Source: Methylomonas montana (GTDB taxonomy: Bacteria > Pseudomonadota > Gammaproteobacteria > Methylococcales > Methylomonadaceae). Taken from it: a DNA stretch of 64,000 nt. Positions 12,621-38,895 of the stretch are shown one piece after another. Within the stretch, counting starts at the first letter, position 1. Every line of letters starts with the position of its first letter. The notes beneath the pieces are model-generated. The model searched no databases, was not told where the DNA came from, and worked only from the letters and a program-made list of their open reading frames with translations. The position numbers and the translations under genes were made by a program. Where the stretch lies: assembly GCF_030490285.1 (NCBI RefSeq), contig NZ_CP129884.1, forward strand, positions 1,426,001 to 1,490,000, in the 5' to 3' direction.

Positions 12621-13400
12621 TTAGACGGCAAGGCTAGAGGCTGTGCTTTTGCGGCGGCTGGCAAGGAAAATCATTAGACCTGTACCATATAGCCAAACAG
12701 CTCCGGGCAGTGGGACAGCGGCAATAGATGTCACATCATCAATGGTCTTGGATGAACCGATCAGTGAAGCGAGCGTACCGTTGCTGGCGTTACCATCCAG
12801 GGCTCTAACAAGCTTGTTAAATCCACTACTCAATCCCAGCAGCCATAGGCTTTCACCCGTTGAACCTCCGGTCAAGCCCGGATTGTTCGCAACCCAGCCG
12901 TCAGTGAAATGAGTATTGAAACCTAAAGCAAAACCACCGAAGGTGCCAATTACATCCGGTGTACTGTTGCCAGGGTCTGAATCCCAAAGCTCTGCTCTAA
13001 GCAACAATTGATAGGGTTGGTCGGACCATGATGTCGAGCCATGTGAGCCGGCAGACAAGGAACCGTTGATTTGCAGGAAGTTGCTGAGGGATTTATCACC
13101 TATCTGTGTGATCAATTCTCCATCCGAATTGAAGTTGGCCTGATATATCACACTGCCGTCACTTAGCTCTATAGAATCGGAAAACTTACCATCACCAACC
13201 AAAAATGATGTAGTCAGACCAATTCCTTTCAGTTGCCAATAGGGGTTGTCGTCAGTCCCTTTTTTTTCAATCTTGATTCTTTCGTCCACATCTAAAAATG
13301 CGGGCAAGCTAGAATCGCCGATCCCCGAAGCATTACCGGTATTGGCAAGCAACGGCAACAATAGGACTAATGTCCAACGTGCATATTTAAGTAAATTCAT
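12621..13400 (-). CDS. PEP-CTERM sorted surface/exported protein
   Basis: 259 aa. The chosen ATG (13400, MNLLKYARW) has GGAG 8 bases upstream; longer in-frame starts exist, but they run into the leader RNA. A signal peptide covers about residues 1-25 (LVLLLPLLANTGNASG). The C terminus has VPLPGAVWLYGTGLM, a hydrophobic helix and an Arg-Arg-Lys cluster. This is the tripartite PEP-CTERM signal recognised and removed by exosortase/XrtA. The body has no domain I recognise. The leader (13429-13520) carries a c-di-GMP-I-like riboswitch candidate, and a terminator follows at 12560-12599. The exosortase-associated ligase homologue at 57340-58602 suggests the exported protein is handled by the same system. 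Confidence 0.85.
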   Translation of the reverse strand: MNLLKYARWTLVLLLPLLANTGNASGIGDSSLPAFLDVDERIKIEKKGTDDNPYWQLKGIGLTTSFLVGDGKFSDSIELSDGSVIYQANFNSDGELITQIGDKSLSNFLQINGSLSAGSHGSTSWSDQPYQLLLRAELWDSDPGNSTPDVIGTFGGFALGFNTHFTDGWVANNPGLTGGSTGESLWLLGLSSGFNKLVRALDGNASNGTLASLIGSSKTIDDVTSIAAVPLPGAVWLYGTGLMIFLASRRKSTASSLAV

Positions 13401-13428
13401 TTTTGAATACTCCATACTCAACGAATCG

Positions 13429-13520
13429 AAGTGTGGCAACCCGGCTTCTTGTTGATTGATATCCGCAAGAAACTTAGTTTTCCGTCCCGGCCTCAAGGCT
13501 GGGTCGGTTTTTACACGCTT
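13429..13520 (-). promoter_or_regulatory. Candidate c-di-GMP-I (GEMM) riboswitch, leader of PEP-CTERM gene
   Basis: Read on the minus strand, the 92-nt stretch shows an outer stem AAG-C-GUG / CAC-A-CUU. A junction AAAAACC follows. The first arm is a hairpin (CCC-A-GCC, loop UUGA, GGC-C-GGG) running into GGGACGGAAAAC, close to the family string GGGACGCAAAGC. The second arm is a stem UUCUUG/CAAGAA, then GCCGGGUUGCC, which fits the 3' junction of c-di-GMP-I aptamers. It ends 28 bases before the chosen start. The first loop is not a GNRA tetraloop and GACGC reads GACGG, so it may be a divergent member. Confidence 0.62.
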
Positions 13521-13550
13521 CTGGTTTTGAAAAACACAATTAGGCGGCAA

Positions 13551-14196
13551 TCACCTAATATTTCACTGCTTGCTCACAATAAGAAATTCGCATATTTAAA
13601 AATCTTATTGGTATTGCTCGGTTTGAGGGCGTTCTTGAACTGGTAACATGAGCGCCACTCAATACTTAGTAATATTCCGATTATTACAAATCAGGCCCTT
13701 TTTCAGTCTCTTAAGTAATAAGAAGTGTTCCGCACTCCCATTTTTGAGTTAGGTCTTTTTTAAGTGGTATTGGTTGATTTGCTATCTGACAGAAGATCTT
13801 TATTAATTATGAGTAAGTACTGTGTATCAAGCAGAAAACAATAGTTGTCTTCGTTTAGGCTGAGTGGCTAGTACCAGTTGCCGTTCAGCTGTGTTTGCTA
13901 GAAACATACTGCTTGACTTTGAGTTGGGGCAAACCACAGCAACTCTGCGAATTTATGTTACCTCTACGAATATATAGTTACGGCTTTGGTTGGACTCTAC
14001 AATATATGATCATGGGCGTCAAGTGCGGTAACAAGAATAACGTAACTTAGGCGATAGGGAGGCTTCGTACGAAGATTCTATTAACCTAGTGGGGAAGGCT
14101 TATCCAGTGGTACGCATTAGACGGCAGTTGAGTGATGTTTGTGATTAGTGTTTTGTCAGATTTTCCTTTCTAAATACACGTTTTCTGGTCCGTTGA
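13551..14196. other. Long intergenic stretch without recognisable gene
   Basis: About 650 A+T-rich bases between the divergent PEP-CTERM gene and ppsA. I see no open frame with coding character. It holds a small palindrome ATTAGG/CCTAAT just before it (13539-13559) and a perfect 12-base palindrome CTTCGTACGAAG (14063-14074). The region must contain the promoter of the minus-strand PEP-CTERM leader, but no convincing -35/-10 or -24/-12 pair stood out. Confidence 0.6.
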
Positions 14197-16805: not shown

Positions 16806-16895
16806 TCGTGTTGTTTAACAGCCCTTTGGCACGGTTCTCACGGGGAATTGCCCGGAGCTGTTGACCTCATTACTGTTAACAACATGGTAGACATT

Positions 16896-17870
16896 ATGAT
16901 GAAGACAAATTTAGCTAAGGCCGTTTCGATGGCGGTTGCGGGTATGGCGCTTTCCGCCGGGGCTTCAAACTCATGGGCTTCGACGACGATGTACAACACC
17001 TATAAGGCATTTGCTACGGCGACGCCAACGGATGGTGGCGCTACCGCTAACGGTTCTCAAGCGAATGGCACCGATGGCTGGGTGTGGGGATTCAAGTGGA
17101 GTTCAAACGCAACGCCGTGGGCCGGGCCGGGCACACCCGCTGGCGATCAGCCGCTGCCGCCGTCATTCGTAGGCATCAACGGGTCTGCTACGCCCAGCAG
17201 CGCTACGCCGTTCGGCTACCTAGGTAGCGCGCCGGTCAACTGGGCGATGGAACTGACCGGTGCTGCGGATTCCGGCGTGATCTCCCAGGCCGACTCGTTC
17301 AGTCGTTATGGGGTTTACGCGGACATCGACACTGCCAAAGGTGCGTGGAGCGATAATATCAGCCCCAGTACAGCGGCGACAGCGAGCGGCTGGCGACATA
17401 ATGTCGACTTTGGCTTGTTCCGTTCCGCCGTCGAAACCGATATTCATCTGCATTTAGTAGGCTTGACTCAAGCTGGCACCAACTTTGGATTTACGATTTT
17501 TAAAGGTATGGATACGAATCAAACGGATGCTTACAACCATCACGGCCCATGGAACAGCGGCAACAATGTCGCCGGTGTCACTGTCAACACCTTGGTTGGT
17601 GGCGACACGACGTTTACGGTCGACGACGTCGTAGCCTATAGTGTTGGTGGTGCCGCACCCAGCAATTTGAATGACATTACCTTCCATGCCAAAGCAGATC
17701 AGGTCTACACCATCTTGTTGGGAGGCTATAGAAACGGTACATGGGTCAATACGGCCGATGGTTACGTCCTGGCCGCTTCCGCCGTTCCCATTCCAAGCGC
17801 CGTGTGGCTGTTCGGCAGTGCGGTGGCGGGAATGATCGGTTTCGGGCGTCGCAAAGTCCTTACTGCTTAG
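16896..17870 (+). CDS. PEP-CTERM sorted surface/exported protein
   Basis: 324 aa from the ATG at 16896 (MMKTNLAKAVS); the next ATG at 16899 is equally possible, and upstream in-frame codons lack signal-peptide character. A signal peptide with VAGMALSAGASNSWA covers about residues 1-30. The C terminus has VPIPSAVWLFGSAVAG, a hydrophobic helix and GRRK, the exosortase recognition signal. The body is rich in Thr, Ser, Ala, Gly and Asn with no cysteine cluster, as expected of an exported, possibly glycosylated protein. No known domain is recognised. It is not related in sequence to the other PEP-CTERM protein beyond the sorting tail. Confidence 0.85.
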   Translation: MMKTNLAKAVSMAVAGMALSAGASNSWASTTMYNTYKAFATATPTDGGATANGSQANGTDGWVWGFKWSSNATPWAGPGTPAGDQPLPPSFVGINGSATPSSATPFGYLGSAPVNWAMELTGAADSGVISQADSFSRYGVYADIDTAKGAWSDNISPSTAATASGWRHNVDFGLFRSAVETDIHLHLVGLTQAGTNFGFTIFKGMDTNQTDAYNHHGPWNSGNNVAGVTVNTLVGGDTTFTVDDVVAYSVGGAAPSNLNDITFHAKADQVYTILLGGYRNGTWVNTADGYVLAASAVPIPSAVWLFGSAVAGMIGFGRRKVLTA

Positions 17871-33909: not shown

Positions 33910-35712
33910 TTAGCCTATATTGTCGACAAATTGTCGATGCCAAATGCTAAAGTCCACTGGGCTTAGCGGTTTGGCAAAGCGATAGCCTTGCACTTCGTGA
34001 CATTGATGGTTTTCGATACACTCCAGTTCGTCGTCGCTTTCCACGCCTTCGGCGATCGTCACCAAGCCCAGGCTGTTGCCCAAGGCGATGATGGCTCTGA
34101 CAATGGCGTCGTTGGCGGGCGTAGTTTGGATGTGTCTGATAAACGATTGATCGATCTTGATTTTGTCGATTGGAAACTTGCGTAAATAGCTTAAGCTGGA
34201 ATAGCCGGTGCCGAAATCGTCGATAGCCAATTTGACGCCGAGCTCGCGCAGATTGGTCAAGGTTCGTACCGCATTTTCCGCGTGGGTCATCACCACGCCC
34301 TCGGTCAATTCCAATTCCAGATTTTGCGGGTCGATGCCGGTTTCCTCGATGATCTGTTTGACCCTCGCCGCAAAGCCTTGCTGTTCGAATTGCTTGGCGG
34401 AAATATTGACCGACATGCGAAACGCCGGCAAGCCTTGCCGAATCCAGGTTAAATGTTGTCGGCAAGCTTCCCTGAGTACCCAGTCGCCAATCGCCAGAAT
34501 TAACCCGGTTTCTTCGGCGATGGGAATGAATATTGCCGGGGATACCATGCCCATGCTGGGATGTCGCCAACGCAGCAAGGCTTCCACGCCGACCACCTGC
34601 CGGTCGCTGAGCTGAATTTGCGGTTGATACGCCAGCGAGAAATCCATGGTTTCCATCGCTATTCGTAGCTGCGTTTCCAGGTGCATGCGTTCCTGCATGC
34701 CGTGATCCATCGATTTCGCATAGACGACGAATTGGTTGCGGCCTTGTTGTTTGGCTTGGTACATGGCGGCATCGGCCTTGCGAATCAAGCCTTCCGGGGT
34801 TCGGTCGTGCTGGGGATACAGGGCGATGCCCATGCTGGCAGTGGCCTGGAATTGATGGTCGTAAATCGACATGGGCTGGCGCAGGGCGGCGATGATGTTG
34901 GTGACTACCGCGGTGGCGCAAGACTCGCCGTCGATGTTTTGTAAAATGATCACGAATTCGTCGCCGCCCAGCCTGGAGACCGTGTCGCTTTGTCGGACGC
35001 TGGCGGTCAAACGTTCGGCGACGGTCAGTAGCAGCCGGTCGCCGAAACTATGACCCATGCTGTCGTTAATGAATTTGAAGCGGTCCAGGTCGACAAAAAC
35101 CAGCGCGATCATGCGCTGGTTACGCACCGCGTTTTGGCAGGCCTGTTGCAGTCTGTCCTTGAACATCAGACGATTCGGCAAGCCGGTTAGTTGATCGTAA
35201 TGGGCGAGCAGATATAAATCGCGTTGCTTGCGGTAGGTGATTTCCTCCAGCAAGGCGTGTCCGGTAGCCATGCCGGCGTATATGCCATCTCGCAGAATCA
35301 CGAAACCGTTCACCATATGCCGCATGCCGGAGTCGATGATGATTTGCGCGACATCGTCAATGCCGGCATTGACGTCGACAATAATCGGCTGGTCGTCCAT
35401 GATCTCGGTGATTAGCTTGTTGAAGAGCAAATCGCGGGCGAACGGCCGCAGAAAGATTTCGCTGATTCTGCCACGGTCCATGATGCCGACAGGCGTGTGG
35501 TTACGATCGACGACGGTCACCGCGGGCAAGTTTTCGTTGCGGATGAAATGATCCAGTACTGCCACGCAACGGGTGTTGTCGTTAATCGGTTCGACGTAAT
35601 TCAACAAGCGTCCAACGGTGGCGGGTTGCGGGCTTGGAATATCTTCTATCTCCTGTCGATGTCTTCTGGCGTCTTTTAAGGCGATTTCGATGGAATTGAC
35701 GGGAAATAGCAT
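33910..35712 (-). CDS. CBS-pair, GGDEF and EAL domain c-di-GMP signalling protein
   Basis: 600 aa with no membrane segment. A tandem CBS-like sensor covers about residues 25-165 (VGRLLNYVEPI, then AVTVVDRNHTPVGIMDR). A GGDEF domain (about 175-340) has an intact GGDEF signature in RLGGDEFVII. An EAL domain (about 350-595) has EAL in GVEALLRWRHP and DDFGTGYSSL. Both catalytic signatures are kept, so it could make and degrade c-di-GMP; in many such proteins one activity dominates. CBS domains usually bind adenine nucleotides, giving a possible energy input. c-di-GMP may be read by the riboswitch candidate at 13429-13520. Confidence 0.93.
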   Translation of the reverse strand: MLFPVNSIEIALKDARRHRQEIEDIPSPQPATVGRLLNYVEPINDNTRCVAVLDHFIRNENLPAVTVVDRNHTPVGIMDRGRISEIFLRPFARDLLFNKLITEIMDDQPIIVDVNAGIDDVAQIIIDSGMRHMVNGFVILRDGIYAGMATGHALLEEITYRKQRDLYLLAHYDQLTGLPNRLMFKDRLQQACQNAVRNQRMIALVFVDLDRFKFINDSMGHSFGDRLLLTVAERLTASVRQSDTVSRLGGDEFVIILQNIDGESCATAVVTNIIAALRQPMSIYDHQFQATASMGIALYPQHDRTPEGLIRKADAAMYQAKQQGRNQFVVYAKSMDHGMQERMHLETQLRIAMETMDFSLAYQPQIQLSDRQVVGVEALLRWRHPSMGMVSPAIFIPIAEETGLILAIGDWVLREACRQHLTWIRQGLPAFRMSVNISAKQFEQQGFAARVKQIIEETGIDPQNLELELTEGVVMTHAENAVRTLTNLRELGVKLAIDDFGTGYSSLSYLRKFPIDKIKIDQSFIRHIQTTPANDAIVRAIIALGNSLGLVTIAEGVESDDELECIENHQCHEVQGYRFAKPLSPVDFSIWHRQFVDNIG

Positions 35713-38723: not shown

Positions 38724-38799
<76 letters not shown>

Positions 38800-38819: not shown

Positions 38820-38895
<76 letters not shown>

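Follow-up and report, generated by a model that had tools for sequence, protein, structure and literature searches.

A degenerate leader element, derived from a c-di-GMP-I riboswitch, upstream of a PEP-CTERM gene of Methylomonas montana

The window, i.e. the whole 64-kb stretch of M. montana DNA that was analysed, contains on its minus strand an intact open reading frame with a signal-like start and a VPLPGAVWLYGTGLMIFLASRRK tail (12621-13400), preceded by a structured leader. The features of the locus, and an intact leader found elsewhere in the same genome, are listed below with the evidence used to place them.

12621-13400, minus strand: gene for a PEP-CTERM surface protein of 259 aa, with VPLPGAVWLYGTGLMIFLASRRK tail (open reading frame; homologues 52-77%)
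13394-13427, minus strand: predicted hairpin with the Shine-Dalgarno bases in its loop (fold; relatives' sequences compared)
13410-13413, minus strand: Shine-Dalgarno-like GGAG, 9 nt before the ATG (sequence)
13428-13435, minus strand: P1 3' strand, CACACUUC (minimum-energy fold)
13432-13518, minus strand: GEMM-I-derived leader element, a degenerate aptamer (RF01051, genus model and RF03167 scores, blastn)
13436, minus strand: retained ligand-contacting C, equivalent to Vc2 C92 (RF01051 alignment)
13444-13473, minus strand: P3 helix with a predicted register shift, docking G74 being paired with U47 (minimum-energy fold; consensus pairs 45-77 and 47-75 broken)
13482-13507, minus strand: P2 hairpin with a UUGA loop (13493-13496), an A.C mismatch and an internal loop zipped by G14-C35 and C16-G33 (alignment and minimum-energy fold)
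13508, minus strand: A at the equivalent of Vc2 G20 (RF01051 alignment)
13514-13521, minus strand: P1 5' strand, GAAGCGUG, partner of CACACUUC at 13428-13435 (minimum-energy fold)
G000:C1:3818523-3818610: intact paralogue leader of the same genome

The best named model for the protein is the exosortase-dependent surface protein NF041927, matched weakly (16 bits, versus a cut-off of 125). Its homologues include three paralogues in the same genome and four copies in genome G017; in a sample of 301 genomes of the order, seven more copies were found, spread over four other genera of the family. For the two nearest homologues, dN is 0.16-0.17 and dS about 1.4 (near saturation); the dN/dS of about 0.12 indicates that the protein has been maintained, and the gene is apparently under purifying selection.

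A divergent c-di-GMP-I (GEMM-I) riboswitch had been proposed by the first-pass annotation on the minus strand at 13429-13520, and the sequence was indeed read at that place and on that strand. By using the Rfam model RF01051 on a 371-nt minus-strand stretch, as that annotation had advised, a full-length alignment (1-87) was obtained at 13432-13518, with a score of 29.0 bits (E 6.7e-4), but this lies under the gathering score of 35 bits. For this reason, c-di-GMP-I is absent from the all-Rfam scan of the 64-kb window at gathering thresholds, which returned only two tRNAs. The minus-strand fold has a minimum energy of -34.3 kcal/mol (z -3.36, compared with 200 shuffles) and shows the three predicted stems. 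The proposed three-stem layout is real, and the official family test failed.

The genome of M. montana, a single contig of 4.63 Mb, contains ten other RF01051 matches at E <= 0.001, eight of them over the cut-off. The candidate leader shares 76, 73 and 70% identity with three RF01051 leaders of this genome; the closest, the intact paralogue L001 (76%, blastn E 1.1e-17), scores 65.8 bits with RF01051 and 71.2 bits with RF03167 (c-di-GMP-I-GGC, cut-off 59 bits), while the candidate reaches 24.8 bits with the latter model.

A search of the genus counted 182 RF01051 matches in 37 genomes. From the matches listed by E-value, 120 aptamers were picked by hand, hence not at random, and weak aptamers are under-represented because the list, ordered by E-value, covered the best of the 182. 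Together with 11 aptamers of the M. montana genome (candidate included) and 6 more of G017, they form a set of 137. A genus covariance model (R1) was built from 60 of them, candidate excluded, after removal from 71 dereplicated aptamers of 11, mostly irregular (L128, L161, L163, L173, L175, L181, L182, L183, L190, L194, L197), so that the model favours regular aptamers. The genus alignment shows 125 cells with two-sided changes, versus 28.7 in shuffles, and none of 500 shuffles reached 125. With this model the candidate scored 34.0 bits, with an E of 1.9e-5 in the 64-kb window, where the next match had an E of 1.5. Judged by sequence, the candidate is homologous to accepted RF01051 members, as seen from the match to L001 and from the genus model, and is a c-di-GMP-I riboswitch leader by descent; the class originally assigned to it is thus upheld by the sub-threshold RF01051 match, the genus model match and the covarying aptamers of the genus.

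Near the candidate, a second open reading frame with a PEP-CTERM-like tail (16848-17870, plus strand) gives a weak EppA match (23.3 bits, versus a cut-off of 90); before it, no significant match to the genus model was found. Two nearly identical tandem tRNA genes are located at 38724-38796 and 38820-38892 (plus strand), with the anticodon GAA read from the alignment.

The leaders of the homologous genes were scored with the genus model. Values of 76.2, 61.8, 55.5 and 34.0 bits (the last being the candidate) were obtained in M. montana, 76.7, 62.6, 58.9 and 58.6 bits in G017, and 72.4, 61.3, 67.0, 68.5, 68.3 and 18.2 bits in the other genera. Twelve of the 15 leaders score between 55.5 and 76.7 bits, compared with 34.0 for the candidate. 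The PEP-CTERM gene noticed at first pass belongs to a homologous family in which most leaders are of this type. Over the 15 loci from M. montana and G017, the candidate is the lowest of 17 hits (34.0 versus 43.1-84.1 bits). The Rfam cut-offs were passed by five of the seven leaders from other genera, plus one further stretch in L305; no stretch over them was found in L300 (genome G168) and L302 (genome G114). The G114 leader (L302 1277-1358, plus strand) shows a weak GEMM-I match (18.2 bits, E 0.0043), and the G168 leader (L300 2367-2443, minus strand) no significant match to the genus model (9.0 bits, E 0.35). In the G168 locus an 8.8-bit match, about equal to the one before the gene, occurs elsewhere, so that the remnant depends on reading by eye, by which parts of the motif are recognised about 100 nt upstream of the gene. 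These two leaders could be losses or could never have been GEMM-I, the latter above all for G168, whose lack of a significant match makes the recurrence of leader loss less well supported. Both nearest homologues, from G017, also have unusual leaders: in one, about 330 nt separate the aptamer from the start codon, versus the usual 22-31, and in the other pairs 13-36 and 21-28 are broken. On these small numbers, the data would fit a GEMM-I leader that has weakened more than once within this PEP-CTERM gene family.

Within the aptamer, position 11 is equivalent to position 20 of Vc2, which we take to be the ligand-contacting G. It is a G in 133 of the 137 genus aptamers examined and an A in four, among them the candidate; none of the 13 alignable homologous leaders has A20, and the fourteenth, from G168, is unalignable. 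Natural A20 variants of the c-di-GMP-I riboswitch exist, and G at this position is therefore a soft criterion of membership. In the RF01051 alignment both the stacking A and the Watson-Crick C, which we presume to correspond to A47 and C92, are kept, as are the equivalents of A48, C44 and G83. P1 is also retained (GAAG/CUUC).

Among the elements described as kept at first pass, GGGACGGAAA and GCCGGGUUGCC are present; the supposed AAACC is in fact composed of the P1/P2 junction, position 20 and the CC pair partner (AAA-A-CC), and where the family has AAACC, the candidate has GACCC. The GACGG regarded as an alteration is what the genus normally has. The partner of its last G is position 12, a C in 136 of 137 examined aptamers; this amounts to a flip of the G21-C46 pair, which is CG in 59 and GC in one of the 60 aligned sequences. 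A specificity change caused by GACGG is thus ruled out. The P2 loop is non-GNRA, as had been observed, being UUGA in the candidate and GNRA in 135 of 137; the other exception, L183, is an artefact of a register shifted by an insertion.

The A at position 20 had escaped the first-pass annotation, as had a zipped P2 loop, a P2 A.C mismatch (at 19-30) and two broken P3 pairs. With A14 changed to G and A16 to C, new Watson-Crick pairs 14-35 and 16-33 close the conserved P2 internal loop, and the closure is also seen in the minimum-energy fold. Aptamers carrying an insertion are misread by the fixed register, clearly for L183 and L190 and probably for the broken-pair counts of L039 and L191 of M. 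montana; L183 and L190 were dropped from the counts of P2 pairs and docking, reducing 123 distinct aptamers to 121. Pair 14-35 is Watson-Crick in one of the 121, as is its combination with 16-33. In P3, pairs 45-77 and 47-75 are broken and one base is missing beside the docking AG; in the minimum-energy fold the partner of the docking C is G14 and that of the docking G is U47, and U48-A73 is able to restore a P3 pair. The docking bases, presumably numbered C44 and G83, are both present and predicted to be paired, and ten other aptamers behave likewise in the fold model; since both bases are less than 0.2 unpaired in 11 of 121 aptamers, candidate included, this prediction alone is not specific. 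The docking contact between P2 and P3 is described in part by PMC9262584.

Taken together, the candidate shows four violations (positions 11, 14, 23 and 47) at positions 97-99% conserved in the other distinct aptamers, and three broken pairs (19-30, 45-77 and 47-75); seven close relatives show 0-1 violations and 0-2 broken pairs. Three others have lost at least as many conserved positions without a register artefact (five in L163, four in L194 and in L040 of M. montana), so that the candidate is extreme, not alone, in this respect. Its aptamer differs from the relatives at 20-36% of positions, the other seven differing among themselves at 2-31%, while 63-72% of the synonymous sites of the gene differ. 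The leader, being less diverged than synonymous sites, would have been under constraint up to recent times and may be functional still; on this measure a recent or partial loss and a retuned switch look alike.

The region between aptamer and start codon was compared in 11 relatives. A CCUUA..UAAGG hairpin was read in seven of them (L001, L003, C275_22406, two of G204, one of G114, and G256), and this anti-Shine-Dalgarno hairpin is absent from the candidate, whose own hairpin at 13394-13427 is compatible with P1 in the fold. In intact relatives, two alternative partners are open to the P1 3' strand CACCUU, namely the 5' AAG.GUG and the UAAGG at the Shine-Dalgarno site. Folding with P1 forced opens the Shine-Dalgarno in L001, L003 and C275_22406, partly in L005, hardly in C49 and with mixed outcome in C68; that of the candidate stays mostly accessible whether P1 is forced or not. 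When three P1 pairs were forced and the Shine-Dalgarno was picked by a simple rule, all 12 leaders, candidate included, were more open with P1, by 0.02 to 0.35 (candidate 0.79 with P1 versus 0.65 without), and this folding therefore does not set the candidate apart. The fold models suggest that the intact relatives may act as translational ON switches. No promoter was found near the leader by a promoter scan; a terminator-like hairpin with a T-rich tail lies directly upstream of it (13539-13559, minus strand).

We consider it somewhat probable that the element is a decaying riboswitch, the c-di-GMP response of which has been lost or strongly weakened while the gene was kept. In the intact relatives, c-di-GMP would stabilise P1, the 3' strand of which (CACCUU) would otherwise help to hide the Shine-Dalgarno in the CCUUA/UAAGG hairpin. 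In the candidate, A stands in place of the pocket's G20, no GNRA tetraloop is left, the P2 internal loop, which should expose the docking C, is closed by zipping, a predicted register shift of P3 pairs the docking G, and another hairpin has taken the place of the anti-Shine-Dalgarno one; the leader may now be mainly a static, structured 5' UTR. A zipped P2 and a shifted P3 would make P2 and P3 self-contained hairpins, and the loss of docking elements, together with a small effect of P1, points to lost or weak control. Descent, the substitutions, the predicted pairing and the intactness of the gene are what the data show; the loss of ligand response and the direction of the switch are what we infer. 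For this copy, the direct control by c-di-GMP first envisaged is unsupported, since changes affect both the pocket and the docking positions and the candidate lacks the anti-Shine-Dalgarno hairpin that 7 of 11 relatives have.

A more tentative explanation, possible though rather doubtful, is a working but weaker c-di-GMP-I riboswitch, in which G20A and the tetraloop loss would cut affinity and make this gene the member of a graded PEP-CTERM regulon responding to high c-di-GMP only. Differences in the leader two to three times fewer than at synonymous sites, the retained equivalents of C92, A47 and P1, and the presence of intact paralogues in the genome agree with it, and PMC9262584 describes the G20-equivalent position as a factor in selectivity, not as a strict filter. 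However, the zipped P2 loop is unique among 121 aptamers, two P3 pairs are broken, the expression platform has changed, and two homologous leaders from other genera are weak or unrecognisable.

A variant aptamer with changed ligand preference, for cGAMP or another dinucleotide through A20, is judged improbable. A20 followed by C21-G46 corresponds to the arrangement of the cGAMP riboswitch, given in PMC6274999 as A9-A14 in J1/2 and C15-G40 in P2. This GEMM-Ib signature is found in the candidate, but C21-G46 is the genus background and also occurs with G20. A narrow A20/C21-G46 core pattern retrieved 44 stretches from 84,980 species genomes, a set in which records near the M. montana genome may be left out; 42 were titled Geobacter, Geomonas, Desulfuromonas or other deltaproteobacteria, one Bacterium UASB270 and one Methylomonas. 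The preponderance of Geobacter and relatives speaks for a changed ligand preference. The candidate lacks the remainder of the pattern, and the Geobacter-type junction is unmatched in it, with differences at -5 and -1, where 42 of the 44 stretches have A and 42 have T or G, respectively; its junction is that of its G20 paralogues. A20 is moreover missing from the 13 alignable homologous leaders, and the docking elements are damaged.

No Hypr-type GGDEF was seen in the M. montana genome: all 49 domains over the cut-off keep the Asp, as read by eye, the degenerate ones also being placed by eye, at a site that we take to lie within their GHxxGD motif. In Hypr enzymes Ser replaces this Asp, according to PMC6456294. 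A cGAMP switch was regarded as unlikely on the basis of these 49 domains and of the junction. The broader claim of altered ligand preference has little in its favour, part of its basis, GACGG, being the genus norm and G20A coming with an apparent docking loss. The same genome contains a CBASS-like pair of an oligonucleotide cyclase and a two-transmembrane effector (L250 1480-2836, G000:C1:4266881-4268237), and the window a GGDEF domain (34732-35205, minus strand) in an open frame of 607 codons.

Three other A20 aptamers, all with a GNRA loop, were found in the genus: L093 (G015:C77), L101 and L144 (G024:C70). Methylomonas sp. WSC-6 (L101/L281) is the only methanotroph among the 44 core-pattern stretches; the genes after L093 and L101 encode related secreted proteins, in which no CxxCH motif was seen over the part read. 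These three could possibly be cGAMP-type riboswitches outside the deltaproteobacteria.

It is very improbable, and speculative, that A20 and the zipped P2 and P3, which no longer dock, represent an adaptation, the leader having turned into a GEMM-derived element that senses another ligand or, without any ligand, acts like a thermosensor; one PEP-CTERM protein would then have left the c-di-GMP regulon and come under a different signal. A chance resemblance to GEMM-I, with which the score under the Rfam gathering threshold would agree, is barely credible and is already refuted by the intact GEMM-I leaders at the same place before homologous genes, along with the blastn match (E 1.1e-17) to a 65.8-bit leader and the genus model match (E 1.9e-5).

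If the riboswitch is decaying, as preferred here, the case suggests how such an element may wear out while its gene survives: across related bacteria, the GEMM-I leaders of one PEP-CTERM gene family range from intact through damaged to hardly recognisable. Of more use than this one element is the general pattern, which would put PEP-CTERM surface proteins of the genus directly under c-di-GMP. By regular expression, the downstream open reading frame has a PEP-CTERM tail for at least 94 of the 137 examined aptamers. The remainder comprises 26 frames that run off the stretch, 16 others and one aptamer without a frame. Six of the 16 end in a PEP-CTERM tail when read by eye (L116, L128, L130, L146, L147, L159), and 22 of the 26 open frames are alike, resembling one large secreted protein, which we take to be filamentous-haemagglutinin-like. 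Of the 11 aptamers of M. montana, counting the candidate, ten are followed by a gene that by eye is of PEP-CTERM type. No report of this pairing in Methylomonas was found in a literature search, and papers on PEP-CTERM and Methylomonas exist, so that absence is not asserted.

Compared with the GEMM-Ib (3',3'-cGAMP) riboswitch of Geobacter, the candidate shares the A at position 20 and C21-G46, but it differs in junction sequence, loop, P2 and P3, and no Hypr synthase was seen in its genome. With c-di-GMP-I-GGC (RF03167, same clan) the link is through L001, its closest paralogue in the genome, which passes the cut-off (71.2 versus 59 bits), whereas the candidate stays at 24.8 bits. To c-di-GMP-I itself (GEMM-I, RF01051) it is similar in the three-stem layout, GGGAC-GG-AAA, GCCGGGUUGCC and the equivalents of the ligand-contacting C and A; it differs in its score (29.0 versus 35 bits), in A for G20, in UUGA for GNRA, in the zipped P2 and in the shifted P3. 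In Methylophaga nitratireducenticrescens GP59, four of seven c-di-GMP riboswitches precede PEP-CTERM genes, one of them annotated VPLPA-CTERM, according to PMC12530212; the riboswitches are ordinary there, whereas the candidate is degenerate, and the same riboswitch class is paired with the same gene class in both.
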